A DNA stretch of 64,000 nt, taken from assembly GCF_029891735.1 (NCBI RefSeq), contig NZ_JANQDH010000012.1, positions 1 to 64,000 on the forward strand, in the 5' to 3' direction. Source of the stretch: Chrysosporum bergii ANA360D. GTDB taxonomy: Bacteria; Cyanobacteriota; Cyanobacteriia; Cyanobacteriales; Nostocaceae. Positions 578 through 62,229 of the stretch are shown here, in pieces; the stretch's first letter is position 1; the number at the start of each line of letters is the position of its first letter. Under the pieces are notes generated by a model. It had not been told where the DNA came from and searched no databases. It worked only from the letters and a program-made list of their open reading frames with translations. Position numbers and translations under genes: made by a program.

Positions 578-1090
578 ATGAATTTACCTAACTTGATAAC
601 TTTTTCTCGACTACTGGGAATACCATTTTTACTTTATGGACTATATAATCCCACACCCCAAGCCAGATGGGTATGTTTGACCATATTTTTAGTTGCGGCG
701 TTAACCGACTGGTTAGATGGGTATTTAGCGCGTCAACTCAACCAAATTACTGATTTAGGTAAGTTTCTTGATCCTTTGGTGGATAAGTTACTAGTATTTG
801 CGCCATTGTTAGTCTTAGTTGAACTAGAGAAAATTCCAGCATGGGGAGTGTTTGTCATTTTAGCGCGGGAATTAGCGATCGCGGGTTGGCGGGTCAATCA
901 AACTACAATTACAGGGGCAAATATTTGGGGTAAACTAAAAACCGTTAGTCAGATCATAGCCATATCCCTATTAATTGCACCTTTATCATTAGCTTGGCAA
1001 CTTCCCACATTAATTGCTTTTTGGTTATCTGTGGTGTTAACAGTGATCTCTGGGGTAATTTATATTCTTGGAGCTTACCTATTTTCATAA
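578..1090 (+). CDS. pgsA: CDP-diacylglycerol--glycerol-3-phosphate 3-phosphatidyltransferase
   Basis: Makes phosphatidylglycerophosphate from CDP-diacylglycerol and glycerol-3-phosphate, the committed step to phosphatidylglycerol, the only phospholipid of thylakoids. The 170-residue protein is hydrophobic with several membrane spans and carries the CDP-alcohol phosphotransferase signature: D47-G48, A51-R52, G61, D65 and D69 give DGxxAR-x8-GxxxDxxxD. Length is normal for the family. It starts at ATG with the typical N-terminus MNLPNLITFSR. Its 3' end overlaps the convergent rfbB end by 16 bp, so the two transcripts share a tail. Confidence 0.95.
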   Translation: MNLPNLITFSRLLGIPFLLYGLYNPTPQARWVCLTIFLVAALTDWLDGYLARQLNQITDLGKFLDPLVDKLLVFAPLLVLVELEKIPAWGVFVILARELAIAGWRVNQTTITGANIWGKLKTVSQIIAISLLIAPLSLAWQLPTLIAFWLSVVLTVISGVIYILGAYLFS

Positions 1091-2139
1091 TTTTCTTTTA
1101 ACCAATACTTATGTTCTCCCGAACGTACTTGATTCACCCAGTCTGAATTATTGAGATACCATTGCACAGTTTTTAATAACCCACTGTCAAAGTTTTCTTC
1201 CGGTTTCCAGCCCAACTCATCAGTGATTTTATGACAATTAACTGCATATCTCCGGTCATGACCCGGACGGTCTTTAACAAAAGTAATTAAAGCAGAATAT
1301 TTGTACTCTGGTTTGGGTGCTAGTTGGTCAAGAATAGCACAGATTTTCTCAACAACTTGTAAATTAGTTTGTTCATTTAATCCACCAATATTATAAGTTT
1401 CGCCAATTTTACCTTGTTGTAGAACTAAGAGAATAGCCCGGCAATGGTCAATCACATAAAGCCAATCACGGATATTTTGCCCATCTCCATATATAGGTAG
1501 GGGTTGACCCTCCATAGCATTGAGGATCATCAAAGGAATGAGTTTTTCAGGAAACTGGTAAGGTCCATAATTATTAGAGCAATTTGTGGTTAAAGTAGGC
1601 AATCCATAGGTATGATAGTAAGCACGGACAAAATGGTCAGATGCAGCCTTAGAAGCAGCATAAGGACTATTGGGTGCTAGTGGGCTAGTTTCTTGAAAAG
1701 CCGGTTCTTGGGGATTGAGAGAACCATATACCTCATCTGTGGACACATGGAGAAAGCGAAATACCTGCTGTTGTGCTGCTGATAAACCTTGCCAATAGAC
1801 GCGACTTGCTTCTAATAGACCAAATGTGCCAACTACATTAGTTTGGATAAAATTTTCAGGATTTAAAATAGAACGGTCTACATGACTTTCAGCAGCAAAA
1901 TTAATAATTCCCTCTGGCTGATACTGTTGTAATAAATAACTAACTAATTCAAAATTACCAATATCCCCTTGAACAAAATGATAGTATGGGTCAGCCTGTA
2001 CTTGAGATAAATTACCTAAATTACCAGCATAAGTTAACTTATCCAAATTAATTATCTTAGCCCATCCCAACCGTCTAGCCAGCAGGATAAAATTAGCCCC
2101 AATAAACCCCGCCCCTCCTGTCACTAATACTGTTTGCAT
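1075..2139 (-). CDS. rfbB: dTDP-glucose 4,6-dehydratase
   Basis: Converts dTDP-glucose to dTDP-4-keto-6-deoxyglucose on the way to dTDP-rhamnose and other deoxysugars of surface polysaccharides. The 354-residue short-chain dehydrogenase/reductase shows the NAD-binding glycine motif TGGAGFIG at residues 7-14, STDEVYG at 133-139 holding the dehydratase Asp-Glu pair, and the YxxxK pair at Y160/K164. No rfbA, rfbC or rfbD lies next to it in this window. It is followed by other nucleotide-sugar genes, so this block probably supplies precursors for lipopolysaccharide O-chain or exopolysaccharide. The start is ATG at the genomic 3' end with TTGGCAAT-like context; no competing start is apparent. Confidence 0.95.
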   Translation of the reverse strand: MQTVLVTGGAGFIGANFILLARRLGWAKIINLDKLTYAGNLGNLSQVQADPYYHFVQGDIGNFELVSYLLQQYQPEGIINFAAESHVDRSILNPENFIQTNVVGTFGLLEASRVYWQGLSAAQQQVFRFLHVSTDEVYGSLNPQEPAFQETSPLAPNSPYAASKAASDHFVRAYYHTYGLPTLTTNCSNNYGPYQFPEKLIPLMILNAMEGQPLPIYGDGQNIRDWLYVIDHCRAILLVLQQGKIGETYNIGGLNEQTNLQVVEKICAILDQLAPKPEYKYSALITFVKDRPGHDRRYAVNCHKITDELGWKPEENFDSGLLKTVQWYLNNSDWVNQVRSGEHKYWLKENYENR

Positions 2140-2176
2140 ATCCGTTCATAACCCCACGGTATTAATAAAACAACCA

Positions 2177-2200
2177 CCCCGACTTAGGGAAAAATCGGGG
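2177..2200. terminator. Hairpin between the CSP41-like gene and rfbB
   Basis: CCCCGA (2177-2182) pairs with TCGGGG (2195-2200) around a 12-nt loop. It lies about 20 bp beyond the stop of the minus-strand gene at 2219 and upstream of rfbB on the same strand, so it could end the first transcript or form part of the rfbB leader. No long T run follows. Confidence 0.4.
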
Positions 2201-2218
2201 AGCAAACTTAATTACATT

Positions 2219-3157
2219 TTAAACAGCTTGTAAAATCTCATCATCCAGGGAAAAATCAACATCAGCTTGATCTCGTCTATTAGCCAGATAATCATTTTCA
2301 AAAGAATCAGTCAGCCCAGAAATTAAATCATATTGAGGTCGCCAAGCTAACTCAGTCATAGCCTTATTTACTGATGCGAAAAAGTGCTGTACTCGCATGG
2401 GAAAAGCTTTACCCTTGCCAAAATCAAATTTTTTCGGGTCGTAGTGGACAATTTTCATGGTATCAGGTGACTTACCAGCAGCTACAGCACAAGCACGGGC
2501 TAAACCGTCAAAAGTAACATAGCGATCGCCCGAAACATTATAAATTTGTCCTATGGCTTGTTGATTACCTATCACCTGTGACATGGCTGTGGCTAAATCC
2601 TTAACATGACCTAACTGTGTAATATGTAACCCATTACCAGGAATAGGAATAGGGCGATGGCGGACAATTCTATCAAAAAACCAACTTTCTAAATCATTAT
2701 AGTTACCTGGTCCGTAAATATAGGTAGGGCGAATAGAACTAAAAGGTAAATTCTCTTGAGTTAAGTAAGCTTCCGTTTCATGCTTACCTCGGTGACGACT
2801 CCTAGGGTCCACTGCATCACCCTCTGTGTGGGGTAATTGGTCAGACTTGAGATACACACCAGCAGAACTCATATAAACAAAATGTTGCACTTGACCCTGG
2901 AAAATTTCTGCCAATGGTTGAGTATCAGTAAGTTCCCGTCCGTTATTGTCAAAAATAACATCAAATTTTTCCGATGATAATTTTGCTTTGAGTTGGTCAG
3001 AGTTAGTGCGATCGCCTATAATTTGTCCTAATCCCGGCCAAGTCGGTACAGGACGATTACCACGATTAAACAGTACCACCTCATGTCCTTGTTCTACAAG
3101 CAACTGAGTCAGGTAAACACCAATAAACCTTGTACCACCCATGATTAAAATTCGCAT
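2219..3157 (-). CDS. NAD-dependent epimerase/dehydratase, CSP41-like
   Basis: A 312-residue atypical short-chain dehydrogenase. It begins MRILIMGGTRFIG with the Rossmann glycine motif GGTRFIG and has a YMSSAGVY strand and an IRPTYIYGPGNY segment. The overall pattern matches cyanobacterial relatives of plastid CSP41, the chloroplast stem-loop RNA-binding protein, more than true sugar epimerases. The classical YxxxK pair is not clear. The open frame reaches 48 residues further upstream (to 3301), but that extension is low-complexity and unlike the family, so the ATG at 3155-3157 is chosen. The substrate is unknown: RNA binding is known for the plastid relatives and only inferred here. Confidence 0.8.
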   Translation of the reverse strand: MRILIMGGTRFIGVYLTQLLVEQGHEVVLFNRGNRPVPTWPGLGQIIGDRTNSDQLKAKLSSEKFDVIFDNNGRELTDTQPLAEIFQGQVQHFVYMSSAGVYLKSDQLPHTEGDAVDPRSRHRGKHETEAYLTQENLPFSSIRPTYIYGPGNYNDLESWFFDRIVRHRPIPIPGNGLHITQLGHVKDLATAMSQVIGNQQAIGQIYNVSGDRYVTFDGLARACAVAAGKSPDTMKIVHYDPKKFDFGKGKAFPMRVQHFFASVNKAMTELAWRPQYDLISGLTDSFENDYLANRRDQADVDFSLDDEILQAV

Positions 3158-3342
3158 AAATTCCCACTTTTTAACTTTTACAGGATGGGGAGTGGGGTAG
3201 TAGCTTTCCCCTCCCCAATTTGAGGTTAACAGGTTAGAGAGTTCATCTGGAACCTTTTTTGAGATAATCAGGTCTTTTGCCTCATCAAGATGCAAACTCA
3301 AGTAGTCACACAGCTAAGTATAATCTTAGTCAAGGTGAGTAA

Positions 3343-3438
3343 GGGAGTGTCAAACTCCCAAATGGTAAAGGTTGCGTAGGGTGTCTTCAGACCGCGTAGC
3401 AACAACAGTATAAAATCCCCTGTGTTTCCACCAGGGGA
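3343..3438. other. Cluster of hairpins upstream of the glycosyltransferase
   Basis: Three inverted repeats follow one another: GGGAGT/ACTCCC at 3343-3359 with a 5-nt loop, a GTTGC/GCAAC pair around 3371-3403, and TCCCCTG/CAGGGGA at 3416-3438 with a 9-nt loop. They occupy most of the space between two divergent genes. They may be leader structures of the downstream gene or degraded repeat elements. Confidence 0.4.
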
Positions 3439-3464
3439 GATGTCAACCCTAAAAGTTAGCTCAG

Positions 3465-4607
3465 GTGTCCTTGAAATACGCTTTGGTTCATGAGTGGCTT
3501 ACACCAAAAGCCACAGGCGGTTCGGAATTAGTTGTGCGGCAAATTCTCAATCATATTGATGCGAATTTATATGCCTTGATTGATTTTGAATCCAGCAATT
3601 GGGAAAGTTATTTATACAAACGTCAGATTGGTACAACCTTTCTCCAACACTTGCCTTTTGCCCGTAATGGCGTACAAAAGTACCTGCCCTTGTTGCCATT
3701 GGCCATTGAACAATTAGACCTGCGGCAGTATGACGTAATTCTATCGTCATCCCACGCGGTGGCTAAAGGAGTTTTAACCACTCCGGATCAGTTGCACATT
3801 TGTTACTGTCATAGCCCCATGCGCTATGCTTGGGATTTAACTTTTGATTATCTACGCGAAAGTAACTTGGGACAGGGTGTAGCTGGATGGGTAACTCGCT
3901 ATTTATTACATGAATTGCGCCAGTGGGATGTATTGAGTGCTAATCGCGTTGATTACTTCATCGCTAATTCCCAGCATACAGCCCGGCGGATTTGGCGTTG
4001 CTACCGACGGGAAGCAACAGTCATTTATCCCCCAGTCAATATTGATAGTTGCCCATTTTTGGCCAATAAAGAAGATTTTTATTTGACAGTTTCCCGATTG
4101 GTCAGTTATAAGCAGGTATCTTTAATTGTTAAAGCCTTCAATCAATTAAAACTACCCTTAGTAATTATTGGTACAGGTTCAGAAATGCCCAACATTCGCA
4201 ATATGGCTAACTCTAATATCCAAATACTGGGATGGCAGCCCGATGATGTTGTCAAAAAATATATGTCTAGAGCTAAAGCGTTTGTGTATGCAGCTTGTGA
4301 GGATTTTGGCATCGCTTTAGTAGAAGCACAAGCTTGTGGGACTCCAGTAATTGCCTATGGTGCTGGAGGTGCTTTAGAAACAGTGCGCGATTTACACTCT
4401 TGTATGGATACAGCAACAGGTATATTGTTTAAAAACCAAACAGCAGCGGCTTTAATGGAGGCAGTGGAAAAATTCACAGCTGATCAAAATTCTTTTAATC
4501 TGGAGTATATGCGATCGCACGTTTCCCAGTTTTCCTTGGAAATCTTTGGCCAGCGCTATCTCCAATTTATAGACCAATGCAACCAACAAAAAGCACGGTC
4601 AAAGTGA
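3465..4607 (+). CDS. Family 4-type glycosyltransferase
   Basis: A 380-residue GT-B fold enzyme predicted to transfer a sugar from a nucleotide donor onto a growing surface glycan. The N-terminal domain begins KYALVHEWLTPKATGGSE, with the glycine-rich acceptor loop. The C-terminal Rossmann domain carries the EDFGIALVEAQACGTPVIA stretch, in which the two glutamates of the EX7E motif bind the donor. The frame opens with GTG at 3465 and no ATG fits the conserved N-terminus. It heads a plus-strand run of exopolysaccharide genes (sugar transferase, gmd, fcl), so it likely acts in the same polymer pathway. Donor and acceptor cannot be read from sequence. Confidence 0.88.
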   Translation: MSLKYALVHEWLTPKATGGSELVVRQILNHIDANLYALIDFESSNWESYLYKRQIGTTFLQHLPFARNGVQKYLPLLPLAIEQLDLRQYDVILSSSHAVAKGVLTTPDQLHICYCHSPMRYAWDLTFDYLRESNLGQGVAGWVTRYLLHELRQWDVLSANRVDYFIANSQHTARRIWRCYRREATVIYPPVNIDSCPFLANKEDFYLTVSRLVSYKQVSLIVKAFNQLKLPLVIIGTGSEMPNIRNMANSNIQILGWQPDDVVKKYMSRAKAFVYAACEDFGIALVEAQACGTPVIAYGAGGALETVRDLHSCMDTATGILFKNQTAAALMEAVEKFTADQNSFNLEYMRSHVSQFSLEIFGQRYLQFIDQCNQQKARSK

Positions 4608-4719
4608 TCAAATCAATGTAGTTAGGTGTTTTGTGGGCTTTTGGCAATTTATTCCCAGGAGCAGTTCATTTTAGCTTTAAGATTGAGATTATGTGTGGTG
4701 TGGATTATTAAGGAGTATA

Positions 4720-5502
4720 ATGACTGCCCAAAGCTCACTCCTCTCCGGTAAGCGAGAACTACCCTTTAGGAATGGCAAAGCCCAACGGCAAGATGCTAAC
4801 GCTTCTAAGCGTGCTTTTTTCAGACGCGGCCAAAAAACAAAACCGCCGGGGCTGAAACCTACAGGCTTGTCTTTTCAAGGTTTAAACGGAGAGTTTGCTA
4901 AACGACTATTTGATATAGTTTTTTCCCTGTTGGTATTGATTTTGTTCTGCCCTGTTTATTTAATTTTGTCCCTGCTGATTGCTGTAAGCTCAGAAGGTCC
5001 AATTTTCTACGTCCAAAAACGGGTGGGGAAAAACTACAAGGTTTTTAATTGTATCAAATTCCGGACAATGGTGACCAATGCCGAGGAAGTGCTTGTGCAA
5101 ATGATGGAAACATCCCCCGATTTGCGCCAAGAGTTTGAAAGTAACTTTAAACTCAAAAAAGACCCGCGAGTTACTAAAATTGGTCAATTTCTGCGATTTA
5201 CCAGCTTAGATGAATTTCCCCAGTTCTGGAACGTTCTCAAAGGAGATATGAGTGTTGTGGGACCGCGCCCTTTAGTTATTTCAGAATTGCCAAAATATGG
5301 TTGTCACATGGATTATATCTTAACCATTCGTCCAGGCATCACTGGATTATGGCAAGTTTCTGGACGTAATGACATTCCTTACCCAAAAAGAGTACAAATA
5401 GACCTGCATTATGTCAAATTTAGAAATTTTTGGCTTGACTTATGGATAATATTGAAAACAATTAATGTGGTTATTTGCCCCAAAAATAAAGGAGCATACT
5501 GA
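4720..5502 (+). CDS. Undecaprenyl-phosphate sugar phosphotransferase
   Basis: A bacterial sugar transferase that would load the first sugar-1-phosphate onto the lipid carrier to start exopolysaccharide repeat-unit assembly. The 260-residue protein has a polar N-terminal extension, one membrane segment ([20 protein letters not shown]), and the cytosolic catalytic domain with KFRTM, the [14 protein letters not shown] stretch, VGPRP and [13 protein letters not shown], all hallmarks of the WcaJ/RfbP C-terminal domain. An open frame extends nine codons upstream, but AGGAG at 4711-4715 sits four bases before the ATG at 4720, which decides the start. It lacks the multi-span N-terminal half of WbaP-type enzymes, so it is the short form. 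Confidence 0.9.
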
Positions 5503-5823
5503 AGATACAGGGGTGATTAAAATGACAGTTAACCCCACCCCTTACCCTAGAAAATTAATTCAAGCTTAACAAAGGGAAGTTTATCTAAGAAGTTTATATA
5601 AATTTTTGACCAAGATTAAAAAAATTATACAATTGATCAGGTCGGTTTTGAGTTAAGCTGCTTGAGGTAACTTGTGAAATTAGGTTTTAATAAGTATATT
5701 TAATGACGGATAATTGTTAGAACTATTAGGTTGACTATTTCAAGGCAATCTGGTTTTCAATGACTAGGTTGCCAAAATCAACATGGGACTATATTGATTA
5801 AAGATAACAGGGGATAATTGAGC
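5503..5823. other. AT-rich spacer before gmd
   Basis: About 320 bp with no credible gene. A weak inverted repeat (GGGGT near 5512, ACCCC near 5535) lies just after the sugar-transferase stop. The rest is AT-rich and may contain the gmd-fcl promoter, but no convincing -35/-10 pair was picked out. Confidence 0.6.
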
Positions 5824-6900
5824 ATGACCCAAAGCAAACGCGCGTTAATTACTGGTATTACTGGTCAAGACGGTTCATACCTGAGTGAGTTATTGCTAGA
5901 ACAAGGTTATGAGGTGCATGGTATTATTCGCCGTACCTCCACCTTTAACACAGACCGCATTGATCACATATATGAAGACCCCCACAAACAGGGAGTGCGG
6001 TTGTTTCTTCACTACGGCGACTTGACCGACGGTACAACATTACGCCGCATCTTAGAAGCAGTGCAGCCCACAGAAATTTATAACCTAGGCGCTCAATCCC
6101 ATGTGAGAGTGAGTTTTGACTCACCAGAGTATACTGTTGATGCCGTGGGTATGGGAACATTACGTTTACTAGAAGCAATCCGCGACTACCAGCAACGTAC
6201 AGGAATTCAAGTGCGGTTTTATCAAGCCGGTTCCTCAGAAATGTTTGGTTTGGTGCAAGCAGTACCCCAAAAGGAAACAACGCCTTTTTATCCCCGCAGT
6301 CCCTATGCTTGTGCTAAAGTTTATGCCCACTGGCAAACGGTGAACTACCGCGAATCTTATAACTTGTTTGCTTGTAATGGCATTCTGTTTAACCACGAAT
6401 CACCACGACGGGGGGAAACTTTCGTTACCCGTAAAATTACTAGGGCAGTAGCCAAAATTGTGGCAGGTAAACAGAAAAAACTTTATATGGGTAATTTGGA
6501 TGCCAAGCGAGATTGGGGCTATGCTAAGGATTACGTGCGGGCAATGTGGCTAATGTTGCAGCAAGACCAGCCAGACGACTACGTAATTGCCACGGGTCAA
6601 ACTTACTCTGTACGGCAATTTCTGGAAAAAGCATTTGGTTATGTCAACCTAAAGTGGGAAGATTATGTAGAGTTCGATGAGCGCTATATCCGTCCGGCAG
6701 AAGTAGATTTGTTAATTGGTGATCCTACCAAGGCTAAACAACAGTTGGGTTGGCAACCATCTGTAACCTTTGATGAGTTAGTAGCTTTGATGGTAGAAGC
6801 AGACCTACAGGCCTTGGGTCAAACTTCACCCAATGGTAATGGTACAGTTTCTCATGATATAGCCACTATTCGTCCAGAACTGGGCGCTCTTCATTTCTGA
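5824..6900 (+). CDS. gmd: GDP-mannose 4,6-dehydratase
   Basis: Converts GDP-D-mannose to GDP-4-keto-6-deoxymannose, the first step to GDP-L-fucose and related deoxysugars. The 358-residue enzyme shows [14 protein letters not shown] with the NADP-binding GxxGxxG loop, the RRTS phosphate-binding residues, AGSSEMFG (catalytic Ser-Ser-Glu region) and [10 protein letters not shown] providing the YxxxK pair. Length and motifs are typical. The frame also opens at TTG 5818, but AGGGG at 5809-5813 is better placed for the ATG at 5824. It is followed by fcl, which uses its product, so the two form a fucose module. Confidence 0.95.
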
Positions 6901-6922
6901 TTTGTCCCCACACCATAAGATT

Positions 6923-7867
6923 ATGAACGCCTTAGAACTAAACAATAAACGGATTCTCGTCACCGGCGGCGCTGGCTTCCTCGGCCGTCGCGTGATTGAT
7001 CAACTATGTCAGTCCGGGGCCGATAGTGCGAAAATTACAGTGCCGCGATCGCGTGATTATGACTTACGCGTTCTGGAAAATTGCCAACGCGCCGTTGACC
7101 AGCAAGATATTGTCATTCACCTAGCAGCACACGTGGGCGGTATTGGTCTTAACCGGGAAAAACCCGCCGAGTTATTCTACGACAACTTGATCATGGGGAC
7201 TCAGCTAATTCACACTGCCTATGAAGCTGGAGTAGAAAAATTTGTTTGTGTGGGGACCATTTGCGCTTATCCCAAATTTACACCAGTACCATTCCAAGAA
7301 GATGATTTATGGAATGGCTACCCGGAAGAAACTAACGCTCCTTACGGCATTGCTAAAAAGGCGCTTTTAGTTCAATTGCAATCTTACCGCCAACAGTATG
7401 GCTTTAATGGCATTTACTTGTTACCTGTCAACTTATACGGTCCTGAAGATAACTTTGACCCTCGTAGTTCCCACGTGATTCCGGCCTTAATTCGCAAAGT
7501 CCATGAAGCCCAAATCAGGGCAGAAAAACAACTTCCTGTTTGGGGTGATGGTAGCCCCACCCGTGAGTTTTTGTATTCAGAAGATGCAGCCAGGGGCATT
7601 GTTATGGGTACACAACTTTACAACGATTCCCAACCGGTTAACTTGGGAACTGGTGCAGAAATCTCCATCAGTGACTTAATTACACTGATCTGCGAATTGA
7701 TGGAATTTAACGGTGAGATTGTCTGGGAAACAGATCAACCCAATGGTCAACCCAGGCGTTGCTTAGATATTGAACGGGCCAAGCAAGCCTTTAACTTTAC
7801 CGCCCAAGTAAGTTTTAGGCAAGGGCTAAAAAATACCATTGACTGGTATCGACAAAACGCTGCATAG
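6923..7867 (+). CDS. fcl: GDP-L-fucose synthase (3,5-epimerase/4-reductase)
   Basis: Epimerises and reduces the gmd product to GDP-L-fucose with NADPH. The 314-residue protein has [14 protein letters not shown] as NADP-binding loop, a [15 protein letters not shown] stretch with the catalytic Ser position changed to Thr-Ile-Cys as in other Fcl relatives, and YGIAKKA giving YxxxK. The frame is open from a TTG at 6902, but the conserved N-terminus fits the ATG at 6923. It begins 22 bp after gmd and a strong terminator follows at 7878-7900, so gmd-fcl probably ends one transcript. Confidence 0.93.
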
Positions 7868-8530: not shown

Positions 8531-9379
8531 TTGAGTAATTTTAAGACCAACCCTCACCCACCCAAATCACAACGTATTTTCACCTACGGGTTATTGTCTG
8601 CCATTGCACTGGTGACGCTTTTTCCTTTGTTATGGTTGCTTAGTACAGCTTTGAAGTCCCCCACAGAAAATATTTTACAGTCACCCCCCCAAATATTCCC
8701 CACTCAACCAACAATAGATAACTTTTTCAGAGTGTGGCAAGCCTTGCCCTTTGGACAATATTTATATAATAGTACCTTAGTGGCAGTGCTAACCGTGGCA
8801 TTGAATTTACTATTTTGTTCTTTAGCTGCTTACCCTTTAGCCAGACTGTCATTTGTGGGGCGAAACTGGATTTTTATCGCCATTGTTTCCACCATCATGA
8901 TTCCTTTTCAAATTGTCATGATTCCCCTTTATATTTTGACAGTGCAATTAGGACTAAGAAACACTTATTTAGGGATAATTTTTCCTAGTTTAGCCTCAGC
9001 TTTTGGAATTTTTTTACTGCGACAAGCCTTTATGGGCGTACCCAAAGAACTAGAAGAAGCAGCCCGCATTGATGGTAGTTCAGAATTGGGTTTATGGTGG
9101 TATGTGATGTTACCTGCCATTCGTCCGGCTTTAGTTACTCTGTCTATTTTTGTATTTATCGGTGCTTGGAGTGATTTTCTTTGGCCTTTAATTGTCATTC
9201 AAGATGAAAGCTTATATACCCTACCTTTGGGAGTCGCCAAACTAGCCGGCACATTTTCCCTAGACTGGCGGTTAGTAGCCGCAGGTTCGCTAATTTCCAT
9301 CGCCCCAATCCTGCTATTATTTTTATTTTTACAGCGCTACATTGTCCCTACAGAAACCAGTAGTGGCGTTAAAGGCTGA
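8531..9379 (+). CDS. Carbohydrate ABC transporter permease (MalG type)
   Basis: Inner-membrane subunit of a binding-protein-dependent sugar importer. The 282-residue protein has about six membrane segments and the EAA loop EELEEAARIDGSS followed by MLPAIRPAL, which docks on the ATPase. It resembles the MalG/UgpE branch. It starts at TTG 8531, supported by GAGGA at 8520-8524. The partner permease, ATPase and binding protein are not adjacent here, so it is an orphan subunit, as often seen in cyanobacteria where one ATPase serves several transporters. The substrate is probably a di- or oligosaccharide or glucosylglycerol-like solute, but this cannot be fixed. Confidence 0.9.
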   Translation: MSNFKTNPHPPKSQRIFTYGLLSAIALVTLFPLLWLLSTALKSPTENILQSPPQIFPTQPTIDNFFRVWQALPFGQYLYNSTLVAVLTVALNLLFCSLAAYPLARLSFVGRNWIFIAIVSTIMIPFQIVMIPLYILTVQLGLRNTYLGIIFPSLASAFGIFLLRQAFMGVPKELEEAARIDGSSELGLWWYVMLPAIRPALVTLSIFVFIGAWSDFLWPLIVIQDESLYTLPLGVAKLAGTFSLDWRLVAAGSLISIAPILLLFLFLQRYIVPTETSSGVKG

Positions 9380-9444: not shown

Positions 9445-12400
9445 CTAATCAGTCACTTGTACAGCAAAATTCACTGTGTAAGGTTCATTGATGGGTTGTT
9501 TAGTACTGGCTTTGATGGCATTTAAATAAGTTTGCAAAACCAACACCTGTGAAAAATTGGGACGATAAGAAAGATTTCCTTGCTTTTCAAACAGTGGTGC
9601 AGAAGCGATCGCCTTATAGTCTCGGTTATTCCGAGAACTAGAACTAAGCCAGGTAGAATCTGGAATTGCAGGTATCAAACCCGGAGGTAACTCATTTTCC
9701 AAGAAAGCTAATAAGCGTCGTTGACAAATACTGGTATTAATGCCGGAATCTTCAAATAACTGGAGAATTTCACCAAAAGATACTGTTCTATCTGGCACAA
9801 GTCGCAGCAATTCCATAAATAAGAAATAGTCGGTGTAATGTTGCTTGGGTTGTTCTAAAACCTGGGGATGTAGAGGTAAGGTTGCCAAACCATAGGCTAC
9901 CCGACTACAATTAGGAGCGCCGTTTTCACCCAGATACAAATATTGAATAATTTTCGTGTGAGGCAATTTTTGACGTAGCCAATAATTTACAGCCCCTAAA
10001 CAAGCCCCCCCTCCAGTGATAATGGCTTGATTAATTGCTTCCGTAGTTATACCACGAGCCGCCAACAACTTATTAAACTCTCGATTTAAACTGCGGACAA
10101 AAGGAGCAAATACACGGTTTTCTAAATCTCGTCGCTGTAATACCCATTGCACATCTGCCAATTCTAGAGTAAAAGAATCTTGCTGTTGTAAGATTAGCTT
10201 CAAAGCCAGAGCCGCATCAAGCACAGCCCGTCCCAACAAAGAACTTTCTAATTTTTGCTGGAGACGAATTCGAGCAGTCATATCCGGTTCAGCTACTTGG
10301 GGTAAATCCAACCCCTCCAACCCTAAACTTTCCCAACGCATTTGCTCCAAACCAGGAAAAGGGTTTTGCCATTGCCAAGAGTTATTAGTAGTTGTTGTAT
10401 TATCTGGTGAATTAATCTGCCGAGGTTGGCGATAATCTGGAGGAAGTAACAACTGGCAAATAATATCTTGCTCAATTCCGTTACCAGCGTAAGCGAAACT
10501 ATGCAGCATAAAGTCATCATGCTTCAGTTCCTGCAAATTATCAGGTAAGTCTACCAGTGTCATTTCTGTTGTACTTGCCCCAATGTTAATGACAAAACTA
10601 TTACCAACTAAAGAATCATAGCTGGATTTAACCGGATGTAAACCTTCGGAATCGCTGATTTGCACTGTTTCACCATCAGCGCCATCCAGTATGCTAAGTA
10701 AACTAGCGATCGCCTCTTCCACAAAAAATATTTGCTGTGGATGTGAGACCAATTGGCTATTAAGTACAGCCTCCCGCACATTAAAGCGATATTGTTCCGA
10801 CCAGCTAAATGGACAGGTACAGACAACACCAGCAATATTATTGATAATGTGACGGAAAGTTTCATGACTTAAACCCACAGCACTAGCGATTAAACCTTGA
10901 GTAGTACTGTAGCGATCTGACTTTAAAGTTAACAGTAACTTAGAAAGCGATCGCACCACCCAAGTTAAAGGACCAGCAGAAAATTGATTGAATTGCAAAA
11001 CCGGCTCCCATCTTTGCTGTTCATTTTTATATGGGATAGCCACCTGCAAATAAGGCTTCAATTGTACTGAGTAAAAATTCTGCTGGTGATTTTCCGCCAT
11101 TTTCTGAGCTTCTCCCCTCTCAGCCTCCCCTTGTGGTGAAGTAGGTAGATAAACTTCTGCTGGTAAACGAAACGATAGCGGAAAAGAAGTCAATCTTTGT
11201 TGGTTTTCTGCTGACCAGCAAATGGGATAAACAACAGCAGTAGAACGATTCAACAAAGCCGCAGAAATTCCACTTGTACCCACATCAACACCCAAGTACC
11301 AAACCGAGTCCAGCATATTGGGGGTAATATTTGTACTATTCACAGAGTCAGCACCCCCAAAAGAACTTTGTTGGTCAGCACTAGTTTGGGAAACTGTTAT
11401 CTCATCTTTATTTGTGGGACTAAAATCTAAATCTATTTCTGTTTGCGGCCATGATATTGGCTTAACCTCCCGTAACTCCACATTAGACTCAGCAAGATTA
11501 GGAGTATCATAATCAACATTCAATTCATCAAAATTCGCTAAATCTTGATTTAATTGTTGGATCTGCTCCTCATCCAGAGTGATATCCGCCACATTAGCAG
11601 ACTGGCTCTCATGTGATGCAAGTAAATTTTCTTGTGGAGAAGCTGAAATGTAGTTATCTAAATCCCCATCTTCTTGGTTAGGAGTTGCTACTTGCAATTG
11701 TTGACTATGAGCTATTACTGCTGCTGCTTCCCAACTAGAAGCAATTTCTAGTTTTTGCTCCTCAGTAAATAATTCACTCAGGGCTGTGATAGTATCAGCA
11801 CTACTTGGTTGTACAGACAAATTATCAGGTGACATCACTGCTGTAGACGACGACCCAGAAAAATCTCCCCATTTTTCCGGGTTGGTATCCTCCTCAAAAA
11901 ACAATTCTGTCCAAGACTCTAATTCTGCGTCTGCTTGCTCAAGCCAAGGGTCTGGAACCCTTGTTATTGGCGTAATTCTCGATGCTAATGTACTTTCAGT
12001 GATATTATTTTCTGGTATTACCTCTGGTTCTGAGGGATGAATTACAAATGTAGGTTGAGTTTCTGTGATGTGAGACGATGATAAATTTTCTTGATCAACC
12101 CTCAGATCATTGACATGATCAGTGTCTAATAAACTGGCATACAGTTGATCTACTTCATCACCTACTAACTCCAAATCATCCTGCTGTGCTGTCTTTGCCT
12201 TATCAAATGAGGAAGAATCATCTACACTTAGATCCAAAAGCATAGCATCCAGATCATCTGCCATACTGACATCATTTACATCTTCCTGTTCAGCTTCCGG
12301 TAATGAAAATCCCCAAGACTGGGATGTTTCCCCACTAGTGTAATCTTGTGGTGCTAGTTCTGGTGCAGTGGTGTTTGTGGGGATTGGTTTTGTGGGGATT

Positions 12401-13308
12401 GGTAATGATGCTGATGCAAATGGGGGTTGAGTTATTTCTAAATCTGGAAAAGATAACTCTGTCATCTGGGCTTGTTGCTGCAAATGCTGGGTTAAATTAT
12501 GGAGAAAATTGACCATCAACTGCTGGCCTTGTACACCCGTGCTGTGCATTTTGGCTAAACCTTGAGATAAGGACTCGTAATAAGTGTTTATGTTGCGCTG
12601 TAATGCCTCAAAAACAAAATTTACAGTCCCATCTAAGGATAGTAGACGTTGATCTAGTTCCCCCGTCAGATATGTTAATTTTTGTAATTTTTCTGATGAT
12701 TCTAAGATATCTGGAGTGGCTAAAGATGCAGTTTCTATACTGCTATAATTATCCTGATTAGCAGAACTATCTGCCATCTGAGGCGTGAGAGTAGATGCAA
12801 CACGGCTCATCAGCAACTGCAAAAATTCTGAAATCATCTGCTCTTGGTGAGCATACTGCTGGCTCAGAGAGTAGTTGTGCAGTCTCTTTTGCTCTAGCTG
12901 TCTAATTTCTTGAACAAGATTTTCCCTCTCTTGCATCATTGCTGCTAATTCGGCTTGCAACGGCTGTATTAGTGAGGATAATTCGCTTTTTAGTTGCTGA
13001 ATTAGCACATTACCTTGTTCTTGCTCTGGTTGGTTTTGCTGTCCCAAAGATTGCTTGTTACTTTGGTTGACAAATTTCTCTAATAAAGGAGACCTTCGCA
13101 CCTCTCCAGTTTGGTTGTTTTGATGATGAGTATTTGAAATCTCACTTTCTCTTTCCTGGACAAGGAACTTGCGAATTGTTTCTAAAACCTCTCTGGCTTC
13201 GGTGTTTTGACCAGACAAAAGCCGAGATGATAGGCGCTTACCACGGATGTTCAGTAAGTTGTCAATGTCTGCAATCAATTTTTCAATTTGATCTACGCGG
13301 GAAGTCAC
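9445..13308 (-). CDS. Giant coiled-coil protein with C-terminal actin/Hsp70-like ATPase domain
   Basis: A 1287-residue protein of unknown function. Residues about 1-300 are helical and glutamine-rich with coiled-coil character (ESELSSLIQPLQAELAAMMQ-like stretches). About 300-660 is acidic, Ser/Asp/Glu-rich and probably disordered. About 668-1200 contains an actin-fold domain with the three nucleotide-binding signatures: YLGVDVGTSGISAALL near 670 (phosphate 1), FVINIGASTTEMTLVD near 907 (phosphate 2) and AIITGGGACLGAVNYWL near 1097 (adenosine). No substrate-binding domain of DnaK type follows; the tail of about 100 residues is different. It stands alone, convergent with the permease. An ATP-dependent scaffold or chaperone-like role is inference only. 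Confidence 0.85.
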   Translation of the reverse strand: MTSRVDQIEKLIADIDNLLNIRGKRLSSRLLSGQNTEAREVLETIRKFLVQERESEISNTHHQNNQTGEVRRSPLLEKFVNQSNKQSLGQQNQPEQEQGNVLIQQLKSELSSLIQPLQAELAAMMQERENLVQEIRQLEQKRLHNYSLSQQYAHQEQMISEFLQLLMSRVASTLTPQMADSSANQDNYSSIETASLATPDILESSEKLQKLTYLTGELDQRLLSLDGTVNFVFEALQRNINTYYESLSQGLAKMHSTGVQGQQLMVNFLHNLTQHLQQQAQMTELSFPDLEITQPPFASASLPIPTKPIPTNTTAPELAPQDYTSGETSQSWGFSLPEAEQEDVNDVSMADDLDAMLLDLSVDDSSSFDKAKTAQQDDLELVGDEVDQLYASLLDTDHVNDLRVDQENLSSSHITETQPTFVIHPSEPEVIPENNITESTLASRITPITRVPDPWLEQADAELESWTELFFEEDTNPEKWGDFSGSSSTAVMSPDNLSVQPSSADTITALSELFTEEQKLEIASSWEAAAVIAHSQQLQVATPNQEDGDLDNYISASPQENLLASHESQSANVADITLDEEQIQQLNQDLANFDELNVDYDTPNLAESNVELREVKPISWPQTEIDLDFSPTNKDEITVSQTSADQQSSFGGADSVNSTNITPNMLDSVWYLGVDVGTSGISAALLNRSTAVVYPICWSAENQQRLTSFPLSFRLPAEVYLPTSPQGEAERGEAQKMAENHQQNFYSVQLKPYLQVAIPYKNEQQRWEPVLQFNQFSAGPLTWVVRSLSKLLLTLKSDRYSTTQGLIASAVGLSHETFRHIINNIAGVVCTCPFSWSEQYRFNVREAVLNSQLVSHPQQIFFVEEAIASLLSILDGADGETVQISDSEGLHPVKSSYDSLVGNSFVINIGASTTEMTLVDLPDNLQELKHDDFMLHSFAYAGNGIEQDIICQLLLPPDYRQPRQINSPDNTTTTNNSWQWQNPFPGLEQMRWESLGLEGLDLPQVAEPDMTARIRLQQKLESSLLGRAVLDAALALKLILQQQDSFTLELADVQWVLQRRDLENRVFAPFVRSLNREFNKLLAARGITTEAINQAIITGGGACLGAVNYWLRQKLPHTKIIQYLYLGENGAPNCSRVAYGLATLPLHPQVLEQPKQHYTDYFLFMELLRLVPDRTVSFGEILQLFEDSGINTSICQRRLLAFLENELPPGLIPAIPDSTWLSSSSRNNRDYKAIASAPLFEKQGNLSYRPNFSQVLVLQTYLNAIKASTKQPINEPYTVNFAVQVTD

Positions 13309-13941
13309 TTTTAATTACCTTAGCTAAAACTGTACTTTAACTTGTATGAGAATTACTGGAAAACTACAAAATTTCCGAAAGTAGTAACCATTGGGACAGC
13401 TGACGAAAATTATGTTATTAATTTTATCAAGTGCCTAGCCCTATGACTGTACATACTATGTTACAAATTCTCCGATGTATCTAGTGATAGAAAACATCCA
13501 GAAATGCCACAGGTTTGCACCTATATGAGCAATTATGTACCTAAAGCCTGGCTGAATGGCAAGGGGGCATTTCTTTACTTAAGTTGGGTTGTGGGTGAAT
13601 AGCTAAAAATATGACATGAGCAAAAATAATTATGTGTTTATGTTTTGTAGTCATGAAATTTGTAATATAATTAACTTACAAATAATATTCCGGAAAGTCA
13701 AGTAATTCTATCCTCCCGAATTAGTGTATGATTGAGGAATCATCACCAGTATATATATGTATTGTTTCTTTCTCAGTTTCATTCCTTTGTTCTTGACCAT
13801 ATAAGTAAACCAATTATTTGTATTAATTGTAACTTTTTTTAACACTGGGTACTTTTATTTGTAATAGGGCTTGTGGTTTGATACTTAGAGGTATTCACCG
13901 CTTTGTTTTTTGTATATAATAGCTTTAATAAATATGCCGTA
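13309..13941. other. Long intergenic region upstream of the Crp-family gene
   Basis: About 630 AT-rich bases between divergent genes with no credible open frame. It must hold the promoters of both neighbours. TATATATATGTAT near 13750 is AT-rich but not a defined box. A GTA-N10-TAC element occurs near 13447-13462, but NtcA sites need eight bases between the halves. The length suggests a complex regulated leader for the transcription factor gene. Confidence 0.6.
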
Positions 13942-14643
13942 ATGGAAGACAGATATAGCTTGCAAGCCACCAGCGATCCCTCAATAATTAGATCAGCTCC
14001 CTTTTTTCAAGGGTTACCGGAGGCTGCTATAGAAGTAGCTCTTAGTCATCTGGTGACCCGTACACACCCAGCAAATCAAATGATCCTGCTGGAAAATGAT
14101 TGGGGTGGATCAGTGTATTTTATTTTACAAGGGTGGGTCAAAATTCGTACTTATAATTTGGAAGGTAAAGAGGTAACGCTCAATATTATTGGTAAAGGCG
14201 AATTGTTTGGTGAAATGGCAGCATTAGATGAAGTACCACGCTCCACTGATGTAATTACCCTAACTTCAACCCTGATTGGCAGTTTACCATCTCAGGATTT
14301 TGTCAGGTTAATTCATACCGAACCATTAGCGGGATTGCGATTGTCACAATTAATGGCTAGACGCTTACGACAAGTAAACCGCAGACTGCGATTACGAGAA
14401 TCTGACAGTCAATCACGAGTAGCAGATACTTTGTTATTTTTGGCAGAAGGACAAGGAACAAAAGGACAAACTGGTATGGAAATTCCCAATTTACCCCACC
14501 GAGAATTGAGTAGTTTGAGCGGACTAGCCCGGGAAACAGTGACAAGAGTATTAACAAAACTGGAAAAAAAAGGGTTGATTATCAGGGATTCTGATAAGAT
14601 TTCCATACCTGATTTGTTAGCTCTAGAAAAAATCATCGCCTAA
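13942..14643 (+). CDS. Crp/Fnr-family transcriptional regulator (DevH-like candidate)
   Basis: A 233-residue regulator with an N-terminal cyclic-nucleotide-binding-type beta roll (residues about 25-120, including GKGELFGEMAALDEVPRSTD), a dimerisation helix with many arginines (RRLRQVNRRLRLRE), and a C-terminal winged helix-turn-helix LSSLSGLARETVTRVLTKLE. The frame opens 13 codons earlier at 13903, but ATG 13942 gives the conserved-looking MEDRYSLQ start. The recognition helix differs from NtcA. The protein recalls DevH, a heterocyst-maturation regulator of Anabaena, in length and genomic setting, but this is from memory and unproven. Whether it binds cAMP is unknown; the RS-T phosphate-cassette residues are present. 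Confidence 0.85.
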   Translation: MEDRYSLQATSDPSIIRSAPFFQGLPEAAIEVALSHLVTRTHPANQMILLENDWGGSVYFILQGWVKIRTYNLEGKEVTLNIIGKGELFGEMAALDEVPRSTDVITLTSTLIGSLPSQDFVRLIHTEPLAGLRLSQLMARRLRQVNRRLRLRESDSQSRVADTLLFLAEGQGTKGQTGMEIPNLPHRELSSLSGLARETVTRVLTKLEKKGLIIRDSDKISIPDLLALEKIIA

Positions 14644-14714: not shown

Positions 14715-15440
14715 ATGAGTATTTCAGATTCTTTACCGAATGAGGACCCGTCCCTTGAACCTTCTAACTCCCTAAATAAAGAGTTAAATCAAGAGAAGTT
14801 GACAACACCTAGACTAAAACTTGATGCACCGTTACGAATGGTGGAAACAGCTTTTTTAGCCAGTGCTGGGAGTTTAATTTGGTTGATTAATTTGTATTTT
14901 CCTTTAGGTCCAGTACTACGGATATTTTTCCCCCTACCAATTGCTTTAGTTTACCTGCGCTGGGGTAAAAGAGCAGCTTGGATGGCTGCTGTCACTTCCG
15001 GGTTACTGCTATGTGTGCTGATTGGTCCAGTTCGCAGTGTATTATTTGTTATGCCCTTTGCTTTTATGGGCGTGCTGTTAGGCTTAACATGGCATCGTCG
15101 CGCTTCCTGGTTAGTATCTATTACTTTGGGTACGCTCTTGGGTACCTTGGGGGTGTTTTTTCGTCTGTGGTTGCTGTCTTTATTTTCGGGGGAAGATTTG
15201 TGGGTTTATGCCATTAATCAGGTCACAGAACTGATAGATTGGGCATTTATGAGGCTACAATTATTAGCTACTCCTAGTTTATTTTTAATCCAAATGGGGG
15301 CTGTGCTGTTAATTGTCTTCAATAACTTGATTTATTTATTTATGGTACACTTGGCAGCATGGCTGTTATTGGAACGCTTGGGAAATTCTATTCCCCTTCC
15401 GCCACAATGGGTACAGGCTCTCATGGATTACGAAGGTTGA
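14715..15440 (+). CDS. DUF2232-type multispan membrane protein
   Basis: A 241-residue integral membrane protein with a polar N-terminus (about 40 residues) and five or six hydrophobic segments. It matches the cyanobacterial DUF2232 pattern: an early TAFLASAGSLIWLINLYFPLGP span, then IALVYLRWGKRAAWMAA. Its role is not established. S-component-like or ECF-related membrane folds have been proposed for this family, which would suit a vitamin or cofactor link with the CobT-like gene that starts four bases after its stop. The tight spacing argues for co-transcription. Confidence 0.8.
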   Translation: MSISDSLPNEDPSLEPSNSLNKELNQEKLTTPRLKLDAPLRMVETAFLASAGSLIWLINLYFPLGPVLRIFFPLPIALVYLRWGKRAAWMAAVTSGLLLCVLIGPVRSVLFVMPFAFMGVLLGLTWHRRASWLVSITLGTLLGTLGVFFRLWLLSLFSGEDLWVYAINQVTELIDWAFMRLQLLATPSLFLIQMGAVLLIVFNNLIYLFMVHLAAWLLLERLGNSIPLPPQWVQALMDYEG

Positions 15441-16614: not shown

Positions 16615-16992
16615 TCAATGAATTCTATCTTTCATTAACTGTTCTTCCAGAGCAGCAATGCGATTGTATGCTGCTGTTAATTGTGCTGTTAGTCGTTGTA
16701 TTTGAATTTCTGGTGTTAAGTATTTATCTCCACTTTGCCGATTTATGTCTAAAGACATACCATCTGTCAAAACATCTTTATGTTCCATGTTTGGATTTAA
16801 GTTGATATGTCCTTTAAAATGCTGCTGGACTAGCTCACTATTTTCTACATAATTATTATTCTGTCCCTGTGTATTTGCTAAATAACATTCGGAGAAGGCT
16901 TGAGCAAGTTTATGATCAAGTTGCTCAACCACTTTGTAGAGGGCATCAAGTTTATGATTTAAAGTCAGGATATGTGTTTGTAATGGTTCCAT
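16615..16992 (-). CDS. Small coiled-coil protein, unknown function
   Basis: A 125-residue hydrophilic protein. Both ends have heptad-like helices (LNHKLDALYKVVEQLDHKLA near residues 11-30, and IQRLTAQLTAAYNRIAALEEQL near 98-119), with a polar, low-complexity middle rich in Asn and Gln. There are no membrane segments or catalytic motifs. It is convergent with the CobT-like gene, with 30 bp between stops. The codon pattern and amphipathic ends argue for a real gene rather than chance, but the family is not recognised. An oligomerising adaptor is possible; nothing more can be said. Confidence 0.7.
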   Translation of the reverse strand: MEPLQTHILTLNHKLDALYKVVEQLDHKLAQAFSECYLANTQGQNNNYVENSELVQQHFKGHINLNPNMEHKDVLTDGMSLDINRQSGDKYLTPEIQIQRLTAQLTAAYNRIAALEEQLMKDRIH

Positions 16993-17332
16993 TAAATACC
17001 CTTCTCCTTTTATTGGTATATTTTCTATATGTTATTCAATTTACTAGTGATATTAACTATATTTTTGAATTATTTAATTTTTGCCCGGATTGTGTCCGGA
17101 TGGGCAGAGTGAGTGTTTACCGTTATATAATAAATTTAATTTAATATTTTTGAATAGCATTAATCATAATCTTGGTAAAGATAAATGAATCCATTAGCAG
17201 TTGTTATGAGCATAATAGTCTAAAGTGGTTCTTAGAGGATGTTTGCCCCTATTATTCCCAAAATACAGTCTAATAAGCAGTTAGGTTATAATTTTGTATA
17301 GTCAAAATTCCGCAGTTCCAAATCCAAAACCG
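16993..17332. other. AT-rich divergent promoter region
   Basis: About 340 bp between divergent genes, without a credible gene. CCGGA/TCCGG with a 5-nt loop (about 17083-17097), set inside GCCC...GGGC, is the only clear stem-loop. TATAAT at 17287-17292 would fit a -10 box for the downstream lipoprotein gene and would place the transcript start after the alternative TTG 17294. Confidence 0.5.
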
Positions 17333-18496
17333 ATGGATCGACGCTCTTTCTTGCTGGCTGGTGGTGGACTCGCGCTTTCCCAACTTTTGTTAGGTTGTGG
17401 AGGAAGCAACCAGATAAAACTCAATGTCAAGTTATTAAAAGGTTCTATCCCCAATCAGGTAGTTTCTCAGTTTCGCCGGAGTTTAAAGCAACAGGTACAA
17501 TTAAATTTTTCCCCCGTAGACCAAATACAGGATTTATTTAAACAATTGCAAAGTTGGCAAAATCCATCAAACACCACTGATGATTCATTTTGGGGTCGGT
17601 TTATACCATTTAGGTCTTCTGAACCACCATTACCATCTGATTTAGTCAGTTTAGGAGATTATTGGCTCAAAGGAGCCATTGAGAAAAAACTAATTCAACC
17701 ACTAGAACAGGCGGAAATCAAAGAGTTAAAGCATTGGTGGGGTTTAGATGACAGGTGGAAGCAACTGGTAAGGCGGAATAATCAAGGAAATTTAGATACT
17801 CAAGGAGATGTTTGGGCCGCTCCCTACCGTTGGGGTAGTACAGTAATTGTTTATGATCGGGAAAAGTTCCAGGGTTTGGGTTGGACCCCCCAGGACTGGA
17901 GTGATTTGTGGCGAGATGGATTACAAAACCGAATTTCTTTACTCGATCAATCTAGAGAAGTAATTGGTCTAGTTTTAAAAAAATTGGGAAAATCCTACAA
18001 TACAGAAAATCTGAACACAATACCAGATTTAGAAAATGAATTACGGGCATTAAATCAACAGGTAAAGTTATATAGTTCCCATCAATACTTAGAACCCCTA
18101 ATTATTGGAGATACTTGGTTAGCTGTTGGTTGGTCAAGCGATATTATACCGATATTGGCGCGTTATCCCCAGTTAGCCGCAGTAATTCCGAAATCAGGAA
18201 CAGCAATTTGGGCTGATTTATGGGTACGTCCCAAAGGAGTTAAAACAGATACTTTATCATCACAATGGATTGATTTTTGTTGGCGGACAGATACTGCTAA
18301 ACAAATTTCTGTATTAACTAAAAGTAATTCGCCAGTTTTTCCTAATATTAGTGTCTCGGATGTGGAAAAACCATTCAGACCGCTGTTACAGAATAATCAT
18401 CAAGTTTTTGATAAAAGTGAATTTTTGCAATGGTTACCTGCATCAGCAATAGACCAATATGAGTCTTTGTTTGCCAAAATTAAGCAAGGTTTTTGA
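17333..18496 (+). CDS. Extracellular solute-binding lipoprotein (polyamine-type)
   Basis: A 387-residue periplasmic binding protein. The N-terminus MDRRSFLLAGGGLALS is a twin-arginine signal, followed by the lipobox LLGC, so it is probably exported by Tat and lipid-anchored. The body contains WAAPYRWGSTVIVYDREKF, typical of PotD/iron-type class II binding proteins, and later LAVGWSSDIIP. The frame is open from TTG 17294, but ATG 17333 places the RR motif at the usual position and a TATAAT at 17287-17292 favours it. No ABC permease or ATPase adjoins it, so the ligand is uncertain; spermidine or another small organic solute is possible. Confidence 0.85.
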   Translation: MDRRSFLLAGGGLALSQLLLGCGGSNQIKLNVKLLKGSIPNQVVSQFRRSLKQQVQLNFSPVDQIQDLFKQLQSWQNPSNTTDDSFWGRFIPFRSSEPPLPSDLVSLGDYWLKGAIEKKLIQPLEQAEIKELKHWWGLDDRWKQLVRRNNQGNLDTQGDVWAAPYRWGSTVIVYDREKFQGLGWTPQDWSDLWRDGLQNRISLLDQSREVIGLVLKKLGKSYNTENLNTIPDLENELRALNQQVKLYSSHQYLEPLIIGDTWLAVGWSSDIIPILARYPQLAAVIPKSGTAIWADLWVRPKGVKTDTLSSQWIDFCWRTDTAKQISVLTKSNSPVFPNISVSDVEKPFRPLLQNNHQVFDKSEFLQWLPASAIDQYESLFAKIKQGF

Positions 18497-57654: not shown

Positions 57655-57695
57655 AAATTAAATAATTCCAAATTAGATTATTACCAAGGAAAAAT

Positions 57696-58796: not shown

Positions 58797-58854
58797 AGTT
58801 TTTTGACCTCTCTTTTTAATTCAAAATCCCTAATTAAAATACTAAATTGTCTGA

Positions 58855-61263: not shown

Positions 61264-62004
61264 ATGATCGACGAAAATAAACAAGTAAACAATATAAGCC
61301 AATTGGGTGAACCAACAGAGGTAAATCAAGCAATGAAGAGTGACTCCCCAGCCCAAATCAACTCCAACGAATCCGGCAGCGAGGTTACTGAACAAGTAAC
61401 CGACGCAACTGAAGTATCTGTTGATACTGTAATTACAAAAGATGGTGTAGCTGCAACGGAAAAAACTGAAGTAGAAACGGCTGTTTTGGCAGACTTAAAT
61501 CAACAAATTGAGTCCCTCAAAGGGCAACTAGAAGAACGCAGCACTCAGTACATGAGAATTGCGGCAGATTTTGAGAATTACCGTAAACGCACCAGCAAAG
61601 AAAAAGAAGACCTGGAATTGCAAGTGAAGCGCAATACAATTTTGGAGTTGCTACCCGTAGTCGATAATTTTGAGCGTGCCAGATCCCACCTCAAACCACA
61701 AACCGACGGCGAGATGACAATTCACAAAAGTTATCAAGGGGTTTATAAACAACTGGTGGACTGCCTGAAAAGAATAGGTGTATCACCCATGCGTCCAGAA
61801 GGTCAACAATTCGATCCCAACCTTCATGAAGCAGTTATGCGGGAACCTACGGATGAACATTCGGAAGGAACAGTGTTAGAAGAGTTAGTACGTGGATATT
61901 ATATAGGCGATCGCGTGCTGCGCCATTCTATGGTCAAAGTGGCTGCTCCCAAGGAAGACACACCACCAGCACAGGAAGATCAGTCGGGTGCCGCTGACAG
62001 TTAA
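61264..62004 (+). CDS. grpE: GrpE nucleotide exchange factor
   Basis: Releases ADP from DnaK during chaperone cycling. The 246-residue protein has an acidic, Thr/Glu-rich N-terminal ~80 residues, a long coiled coil ([20 protein letters not shown] region), the [15 protein letters not shown] helix and the C-terminal beta domain including VVDNFERAR and [19 protein letters not shown] (both diagnostic). Length is normal for cyanobacteria. It begins at ATG 61264. dnaK follows after 225 bp on the same strand. Confidence 0.95.
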
Positions 62005-62045
62005 ATTGTAGTTCCTCCAAGTATAGGCATCGCAATCTCAGGATA

Positions 62046-62085: not shown

Positions 62086-62229
62086 TGGAGATGGCAGCTG
62101 ACCCTCAACCCGAGTCACCATAGCAAAGTTTTGAGTTAGACTTCAAGCATTCAGCCTTGTCCTCACTTATGGATCACCGCTCGACACAAAATAATTCGCG
62201 TAGAATAAATCAGTAAAAATGCTGGAAGT

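Follow-up and report, generated by a model that had tools for sequence, protein, structure and literature searches.

What does a 1287-residue protein do that joins a coiled coil, an acidic linker and an actin/Hsp70-fold domain, and to which family does it belong? Its gene lies at positions 9445-13308 of a 64,000-nucleotide stretch of the Chrysosporum bergii ANA360D genome (contig NZ_JANQDH010000012.1, positions 1 to 64,000), here called the window. An earlier sequence-only reading had described these parts, with actin-type nucleotide motifs near residues 670, 907 and 1097; all of them are present, the motifs at about residues 672, 906 and 1097. That reading gave no strand; open reading frame (ORF) listing and translation place the gene, one unbroken ORF with a GTG start, on the minus strand. 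The start is supported by the alignment of its first residues with those of other proteins of this type (48 N-termini aligned). Since the C-terminal half is matched in 61 of 244 cyanobacterial genomes, its own included, the ORF is not a chance one. Its architecture had been said to match no well-studied actin-like or chaperone protein. The whole protein matched no Pfam family (E≤0.1), no NCBIfam family above cut-off and, with phmmer, no PDB sequence (E≤1), and it has no second match in its own genome (E≤0.001). What had been missed is that the coiled-coil half belongs to the family of the SepJ (FraG) coiled coils. The combination of a coiled coil from this family with an unassigned branch of the ASKHA (Hsp70/actin-fold) superfamily appears to be new. 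The four parts of the protein and their motifs, all on the minus strand, are as follows.

9445..13308, minus strand: whole gene, 1287 amino acids, GTG start; the protein's sole match in its own genome (E≤0.001)
12454..13308, minus strand: SepJ-type coiled-coil domain (N-domain), residues 1-285; hhalign, reciprocal hidden Markov models and own-genome profile search
12523..12657, minus strand: signature shared with SepJ, residues 218-262, approximately LDxxLxSLDxTxxxxFxxLQxxxxxYxxxLSQxLxxMxsxxxQGE; consensus alignment of profiles A2 and A3
11329..12453, minus strand: acidic linker, residues 286-660; 20% D+E, 3% K+R, 27% S+T+P
9874..11307, minus strand: predicted ASKHA nucleotide-binding domain, residues 668-1145; AlphaFold2 model, Foldseek and VIA-align
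11269..11295, minus strand: phosphate-1 motif LGVDVGTSG (672-680); Asp in 52/52 aligned sequences
10564..10593, minus strand: phosphate-2 motif VINIGASTTE (906-915), with Asn replacing the usual Asp; Asn in 39, Asp in 4 and other residues in 9 of 52
10000..10020, minus strand: adenosine motif ITGGGAC (1097-1103); Gly1099 in 52/52, Gly1100 in 46/52
9493..9852, minus strand: probable winged-helix domain, residues 1153-1272, within the last ~130 residues; last 146 residues predicted alone, predicted local distance difference test score (pLDDT) 77.6

Profile A2, built from residues 1-285 of 38 sequences, matched a second protein in most genomes carrying the gene. In C. bergii this is a 669-amino acid EamA permease adjoining HetR, and a search up to an E-value of 10 found nothing else beside the window gene. 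According to the portions of the literature available to us, sepJ and hetR are alr2338 and alr2339 in Anabaena, and the SepJ domain layout agrees with that of the second match (PMC6282017; PMC5623728). From the permease layout and the hetR neighbour, the second match is therefore SepJ. HmpF had also been considered for this protein, and was ruled out since the protein is a DMT permease beside hetR. Among 50 scanned stretches, 49 gave an A2 match, 46 of them with 8-12 hydrophobic segments and three being N-domain-only genes of the present locus; EamA was found in 10 of 10 second-match proteins scanned.

A third profile, A3, was made from 46 SepJ coiled-coil domains. Alignment of A2 with A3 by hhalign gave a probability of 99.7 (E-value 1.2e-25, 201 columns). 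A3 recognized all 38 N-domains at 45.0-114.1 bits, against at most 13.2 bits for shuffles that keep the heptad phase (n=760). In the other direction A2 recognized 46/46 SepJ domains at 48.3-95.6 bits (best shuffle 14.0, n=920), a result that is partly by construction because those domains were found with A2. Among the matches listed, nothing in the 1,419 ORFs of the fetched loci exceeded 11.7 bits with A3 except SepJ and the window family. The best of 177,635 PDB sequences, which include many coiled coils, reached 23.8 bits (A3) and 21.0 bits (A2), and the PDB matches were mostly generic coiled coils (Fos, Max, GCN4). Pfam matches of the 38 N-domains were scattered over 18 families, one member each. 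Because the reciprocal profile scores far exceed both the shuffles and the PDB coiled coils, we regard the N-domain, on sequence evidence, as homologous to the SepJ coiled coil and not as a case of generic coiled-coil similarity. In the window protein, the copy of the shared signature ends in QGQ rather than QGE.

The two proteins thus share an N-terminal coiled coil followed by a long variable linker, and differ in what comes after. The window protein contains no SepJ-type DMT/EamA permease (Pfam E≤0.1; hydropathy); a Hsp70-like domain and a probable winged helix stand in its place. Its linker is strongly acidic, and hydropathy shows no membrane segment. As the highest 19-residue Kyte-Doolittle mean is only 1.51, it is probably soluble and, given the nucleotide-binding domain, probably cytoplasmic. 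SepI likewise has a SepJ-like layout without the permease, with coiled-coil and linker-like parts, but the available part of the paper describes no ATPase (PMC12096826), and no third protein of C. bergii matches the N-domain profile at an E-value of 10. Among the matches listed, the open-licence literature held no description of the window protein, of its homology to SepJ or of any soluble protein related by homology to the coiled coil of SepJ; papers that use only the locus tags of Anabaena PCC 7120 or N. punctiforme would escape this search.

Structure prediction and a fold search had been suggested as checks of the actin/Hsp70-like domain, and both support the ASKHA fold. Profile A1 represents the C-terminal half (52 sequences). 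An AlphaFold2 run on it gave a model of residues 661-1287 with a pLDDT of 86.0 and a predicted template modelling score of 0.89. Its PDB matches are DnaK-type (Hsp70) nucleotide-binding domains (Foldseek best E-value 5.2e-13). The 50 VIA-align rows listed (Z 18.8-21.1, root-mean-square deviation 3.2-4.5, 320-357 residues aligned) comprise 49 entries named as Hsp70/Hsp110-type and one ciliary central-pair entry. Actin, MreB, ParM, FtsA and PilM are not among these 50, which is no evidence that their folds differ. The predicted fold is thus that of the ASKHA superfamily, with phosphate-1, phosphate-2 and adenosine motifs. The three motifs stand where the sequence-only reading had put them, but phosphate-2 reads NIGA and not DxG, its Asp being retained in 4 of 52 sequences. 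Since the phosphate-1 Asp is invariant and that of phosphate-2 is mostly lost, a nucleotide switch with weak hydrolysis is likelier than a strong ATPase, as far as motif conservation can indicate. Three fused proteins of one lineage (f2; L056, L057, L059) have both phosphate motifs badly degenerate (LGIDWSDRG; MVVGAR).

All ASKHA families tested are remote from the domain in sequence. Among PDB sequences the A1 profile reached E-values of 0.0094 with PilM and 0.018 with DnaK, and hhalign comparison with individual C. bergii proteins gave 3.3e-5 for MreB (94 columns), 1.5e-4 for DnaK (210 columns) and 0.16 for PilM. Among the 52 members the commonest weak Pfam match was PilM_2 (31 members at E≤1, best E-value 1.9e-4), and HSP70 was matched by 9 members; weak NCBIfam matches were to HscA models (10 and 11 members) and DnaK models (one member each). 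The window member itself did not match PilM_2 (PF11104) at E≤1. The domain shares with the Hsp70/DnaK nucleotide-binding domain (PF00012) the fold and three motifs. It differs in lying below Pfam detection (an HSP70 search of the genome at E≤0.001 did not return it), in its mostly Asn phosphate-2, in its fusion to a coiled coil and, as the sequence-only reading had said, in having no DnaK substrate domain. No beta-sandwich substrate-binding domain was found after the nucleotide-binding domain; about 146 residues follow, predicted to be mostly helical with a short hairpin. With PilM, FtsA and MreB the domain shares the ASKHA fold and the frequent weak PilM_2 matches of its family, while architecture and locus differ and the genome carries its own PilM (contig C32) and MreB elsewhere. 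The ATPase half is placed in an unassigned branch of the superfamily. FcmB, which with FcmC forms the pair Npun_R4472/R4471, is also an actin-fold protein found mainly in filamentous cyanobacteria (PMC12645912). In the available part of that paper it is ParM-like (cd10227), has a ParR-annotated partner downstream and is not described as having a SepJ-type coiled coil. An identity with FcmB is unsupported, the two being set apart by description and not by direct sequence comparison.

The tail is a probable winged helix in the predicted model. Its best VIA-align rows were STIV F93 (Z 8.5), LmrR (8.1) and FOXN3 (7.8), and winged helices make up most of the 50 rows listed (Z 8.5-6.6). Foldseek matches were weak, the best having an E-value of 0.19 and none reaching E≤0.001. 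Because only 2 of 691 chains reach Z≥8, because lower Z values may mean a common arrangement only and because Foldseek is weak, the assignment is probable and unproven.

Matches to the A1 profile occurred in 76 of the 244 genomes at E≤1e-6, and in 61 at E≤1e-15 (hand-sorted). Most of the genomes with weak matches only were judged, from frames of 519-675 amino acids and a short match, to hold other ASKHA-like proteins. The gene had been said to stand alone. In several other lineages its two halves are neighbouring genes, and its surroundings, surveyed in 52 loci besides the window, several of them from close strains and some ending too early, are conserved. In 11 loci the halves sit side by side as two genes of the same orientation (gap -128 to +149 bp), weaker pairs of adjacent half-genes occur in L060 and L063, and in the Nostocaceae loci examined the halves are fused. 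On a maximum-likelihood tree of 37 fused and 15 split rows, the state must have changed at least six times; its well-supported branches alone force two changes, several long branches are unsure, and for two of the rows counted as split (L046, L062) no N-domain gene was detected. An N-domain gene stands alone at the same locus in three genomes (G185, G197, G229), and the ATPase domain occurs without a detected N-domain in seven. One fused version (L078, 4004-11830) has 2608 amino acids, twice the size of the window protein, the extra sequence lying mostly between the N-domain and the ATPase domain.

Co-occurrence with SepJ was scored across the 244 genomes, by hand from the A2 and A3 searches. 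The N-domain is present at the locus in 57 genomes and SepJ in 55: both in 53, the N-domain only in four (G143, G147, G183, G185), SepJ only in two (G051, G118) and neither in 185. For the ATPase domain and SepJ the corresponding counts are 52, 9, 3 and 180; Fisher statistics on such counts ignore phylogeny and are not for reading at face value. For 46 of the 55 genomes with SepJ the gene itself was retrieved and inspected, and the other nine rest on the profile match. The matches in G213 and G118 are partial, and a 124-amino acid frame in G085 was left uncounted.

Wherever the ATPase domain and SepJ occur together (52 of 52 genomes), the ATPase match extends to model position 611 or beyond, and the winged-helix end is thus kept. 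Among the nine SepJ-less genomes, the match stops at position 482 or before in seven, and the tail is kept in two (G111, G123). In three of those seven (L083, L132, L133) the proteins end 14-32 residues past the match. This short form, of 415-585 amino acids and lacking the winged-helix end, is encoded at L083 (5941-7608), L133 (4933-6690) and L132 (6539-7786). It adjoins a Crp gene in L132 and L083, and one such genome (G147) is 2.8 Mb in size.

What, then, might the protein do? The sequence-only reading had allowed for a scaffold role, which is possible and can now be narrowed to the septa and the junctions between cells. Nucleotide-dependent switching of assemblies has been proposed for ASKHA adaptors, FtsA and PilM among them. 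Our preferred proposal, which we put forward tentatively and as somewhat short of likely, is a soluble SepJ relative whose coiled coil is switched by nucleotide and which works together with SepJ or its partners at septa. The position of the SepJ permease would be taken by a divergent Hsp70-type nucleotide-binding domain and a probable winged-helix tail. On the cytoplasmic face of the septum, the SepJ-type coiled coil would co-assemble with SepJ or compete for its partners. This assembly would be switched on or off by ATP binding, probably with slow or no hydrolysis, and the long acidic linker would give both the switch domain and the winged helix the reach to contact further proteins of the septum or divisome. 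In the parts of the papers that were available, SepJ self-interacts and forms multimers, its coiled coil binds peptidoglycan and an AlphaFold 3 model passes the coiled coil through a permease tetramer (PMC5623728; PMC12096826). It is from this self-association, and from the modelling of the SepJ coiled coils as a bundle, that we infer co-assembly. In an unlikely variant, the window protein is a second, soluble SepJ-family member of filamentous cyanobacteria that forms mixed coiled-coil oligomers with SepJ in the cytoplasm and controls by nucleotide when the SepJ coiled coil is threaded into the septal periplasm or kept back from it. If true, this would make it a gate or loader for the septal junction under the control of ATP, coupling the junction coiled coil to a Hsp70-like switch.

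Several points weigh against the proposal of a septal partner for SepJ. The co-occurrence is uncorrected for phylogeny and both genes may just be markers of filamentous lineages, and A3 would not pick up forms of SepJ that have diverged too far. Four genomes have the N-domain with no SepJ detected. In G051, of the same family as the window, SepJ is present although no trace of the gene was detected, which means that SepJ is able to function in its absence; in C. bergii itself the two genes are on different contigs. No data on interactions, localisation or mutants came to light, and the downstream sugar transferase of some lineages points to polysaccharides. Within the available parts of the two studies, the role of SepJ is described as elusive. 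Which side of the membrane its coiled coil lies on is disputed, partly for want of an evident signal peptide, and the evidence (peptidoglycan binding and the AlphaFold 3 model) favours a periplasmic place for at least part of it (PMC12096826; PMC5623728). A cytoplasmic partner could not reach a periplasmic coiled coil. A SepJ coiled coil that begins in the cytoplasm could be bound there by a soluble relative; with one lying entirely in the periplasm, direct contact is unlikely, and an explanation through shared partners gains weight. The window protein thus offers an independent handle on which side of the membrane this coiled coil occupies, since its nucleotide-binding domain should work in the cytoplasm. 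It is also a concrete candidate partner, present in 53 of 55 SepJ genomes, for a key protein of cyanobacterial multicellularity.

Such an explanation, in which the coiled coil is a shared septal/divisome targeting module and the protein a septal scaffold or adaptor with FtsA/PilM-like logic that never touches SepJ, seems to us rather less than likely, if a serious contender. The homology of the N-domain to the SepJ coiled coil fits it equally, as do the three genomes with an N-domain gene and no ATPase. SepJ localisation depends on ZipN, according to the available part of one study (PMC6391411), so that a shared domain may bind a shared partner. However, the self-association of SepJ makes mixed oligomers the simple expectation, and the co-occurrence with SepJ is nearly complete. 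We find it doubtful that the protein regulates surface polysaccharide export or synthesis together with a Bac_transf sugar transferase. Such a gene, confirmed by Pfam in one case, follows on the same strand within 600 bp in 12 of the 52 loci and adjoins all three N-domain-only genes, and a polysaccharide gene group lies in the window. The window and the remaining 40 loci show no such transferase at this position, although some of the stretches may be too short to reach it, and no glycan enzyme is known to pair with such an ASKHA domain.

The cytoskeleton-like role once considered, that of a new polymerising bacterial actin forming filaments, found little support and is improbable. Although the fold and motifs are of actin type, and MreB gave a slightly better hhalign E-value than DnaK, 49 of the 50 PDB rows listed are Hsp70/Hsp110-type, the phosphate-2 Asp is absent in 48 of 52 sequences and the protein carries extra domains. 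Least credible of all is the idea that the protein is a genuine Hsp70 chaperone whose coiled coil binds clients: the fold and the weak HscA/DnaK matches would suit it, but there is no substrate-binding domain, PF00012 misses the protein in its own genome and the phosphate-2 Asp is mostly lost.

Around the gene, the following features were recognized.

13903..14643, plus strand: divergent Crp/Fnr-family regulator gene, likely start 13942; Pfam cNMP_binding and HTH_Crp_2
14715..15440, plus strand: DUF2232 membrane protein gene; Pfam; present in 44/52 other loci
16615-16992, minus strand: small 125-amino acid protein with a coiled-coil-like end; conserved near cobT in 22/52 loci
1075-7867: polysaccharide gene group; nucleotide-sugar dehydratase/epimerase and glycosyltransferase by eye

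The polysaccharide group also holds a Bac_transf gene (4693-5502), a GDP-mannose 4,6-dehydratase and an epimerase. Of the 52 other loci, 41 have a divergent Crp/Fnr-family gene upstream, 39 of them within 1.5 kb, making it a conserved neighbour and, on the strength of its position and domains, a candidate regulator only. It is not a necessary partner, as G233 has the gene with no Crp match (E≤1e-20) and G051 has neither. NtcA was ruled out as its identity (50.5 bits against a cut-off of 244.95). AnCrpB (alr2325) was considered as well; a search of 113 loci for a published FurC site gave none, which does not decide for or against that identity. E. coli-type CRP boxes with at most one mismatch numbered 0 in the window, against 2.03 expected by chance. 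CyDiv (all2320) was ruled out for the gene at 16615-16992, since CyDiv, in the part of the literature available, has 197 amino acids and a membrane helix. A sugar-type ABC permease gene (8531-9379) and a solute-binding protein gene (17294-18496) lie about 8 kb apart with the locus between them. Further along the window, pilC-, pilT- and pilB-like genes were recognized by eye at 56434-60870 (minus strand), and the stretch 61264-64000 (plus strand) carries grpE, by eye, followed by dnaK (Pfam HSP70, 62239-64029 of the contig).

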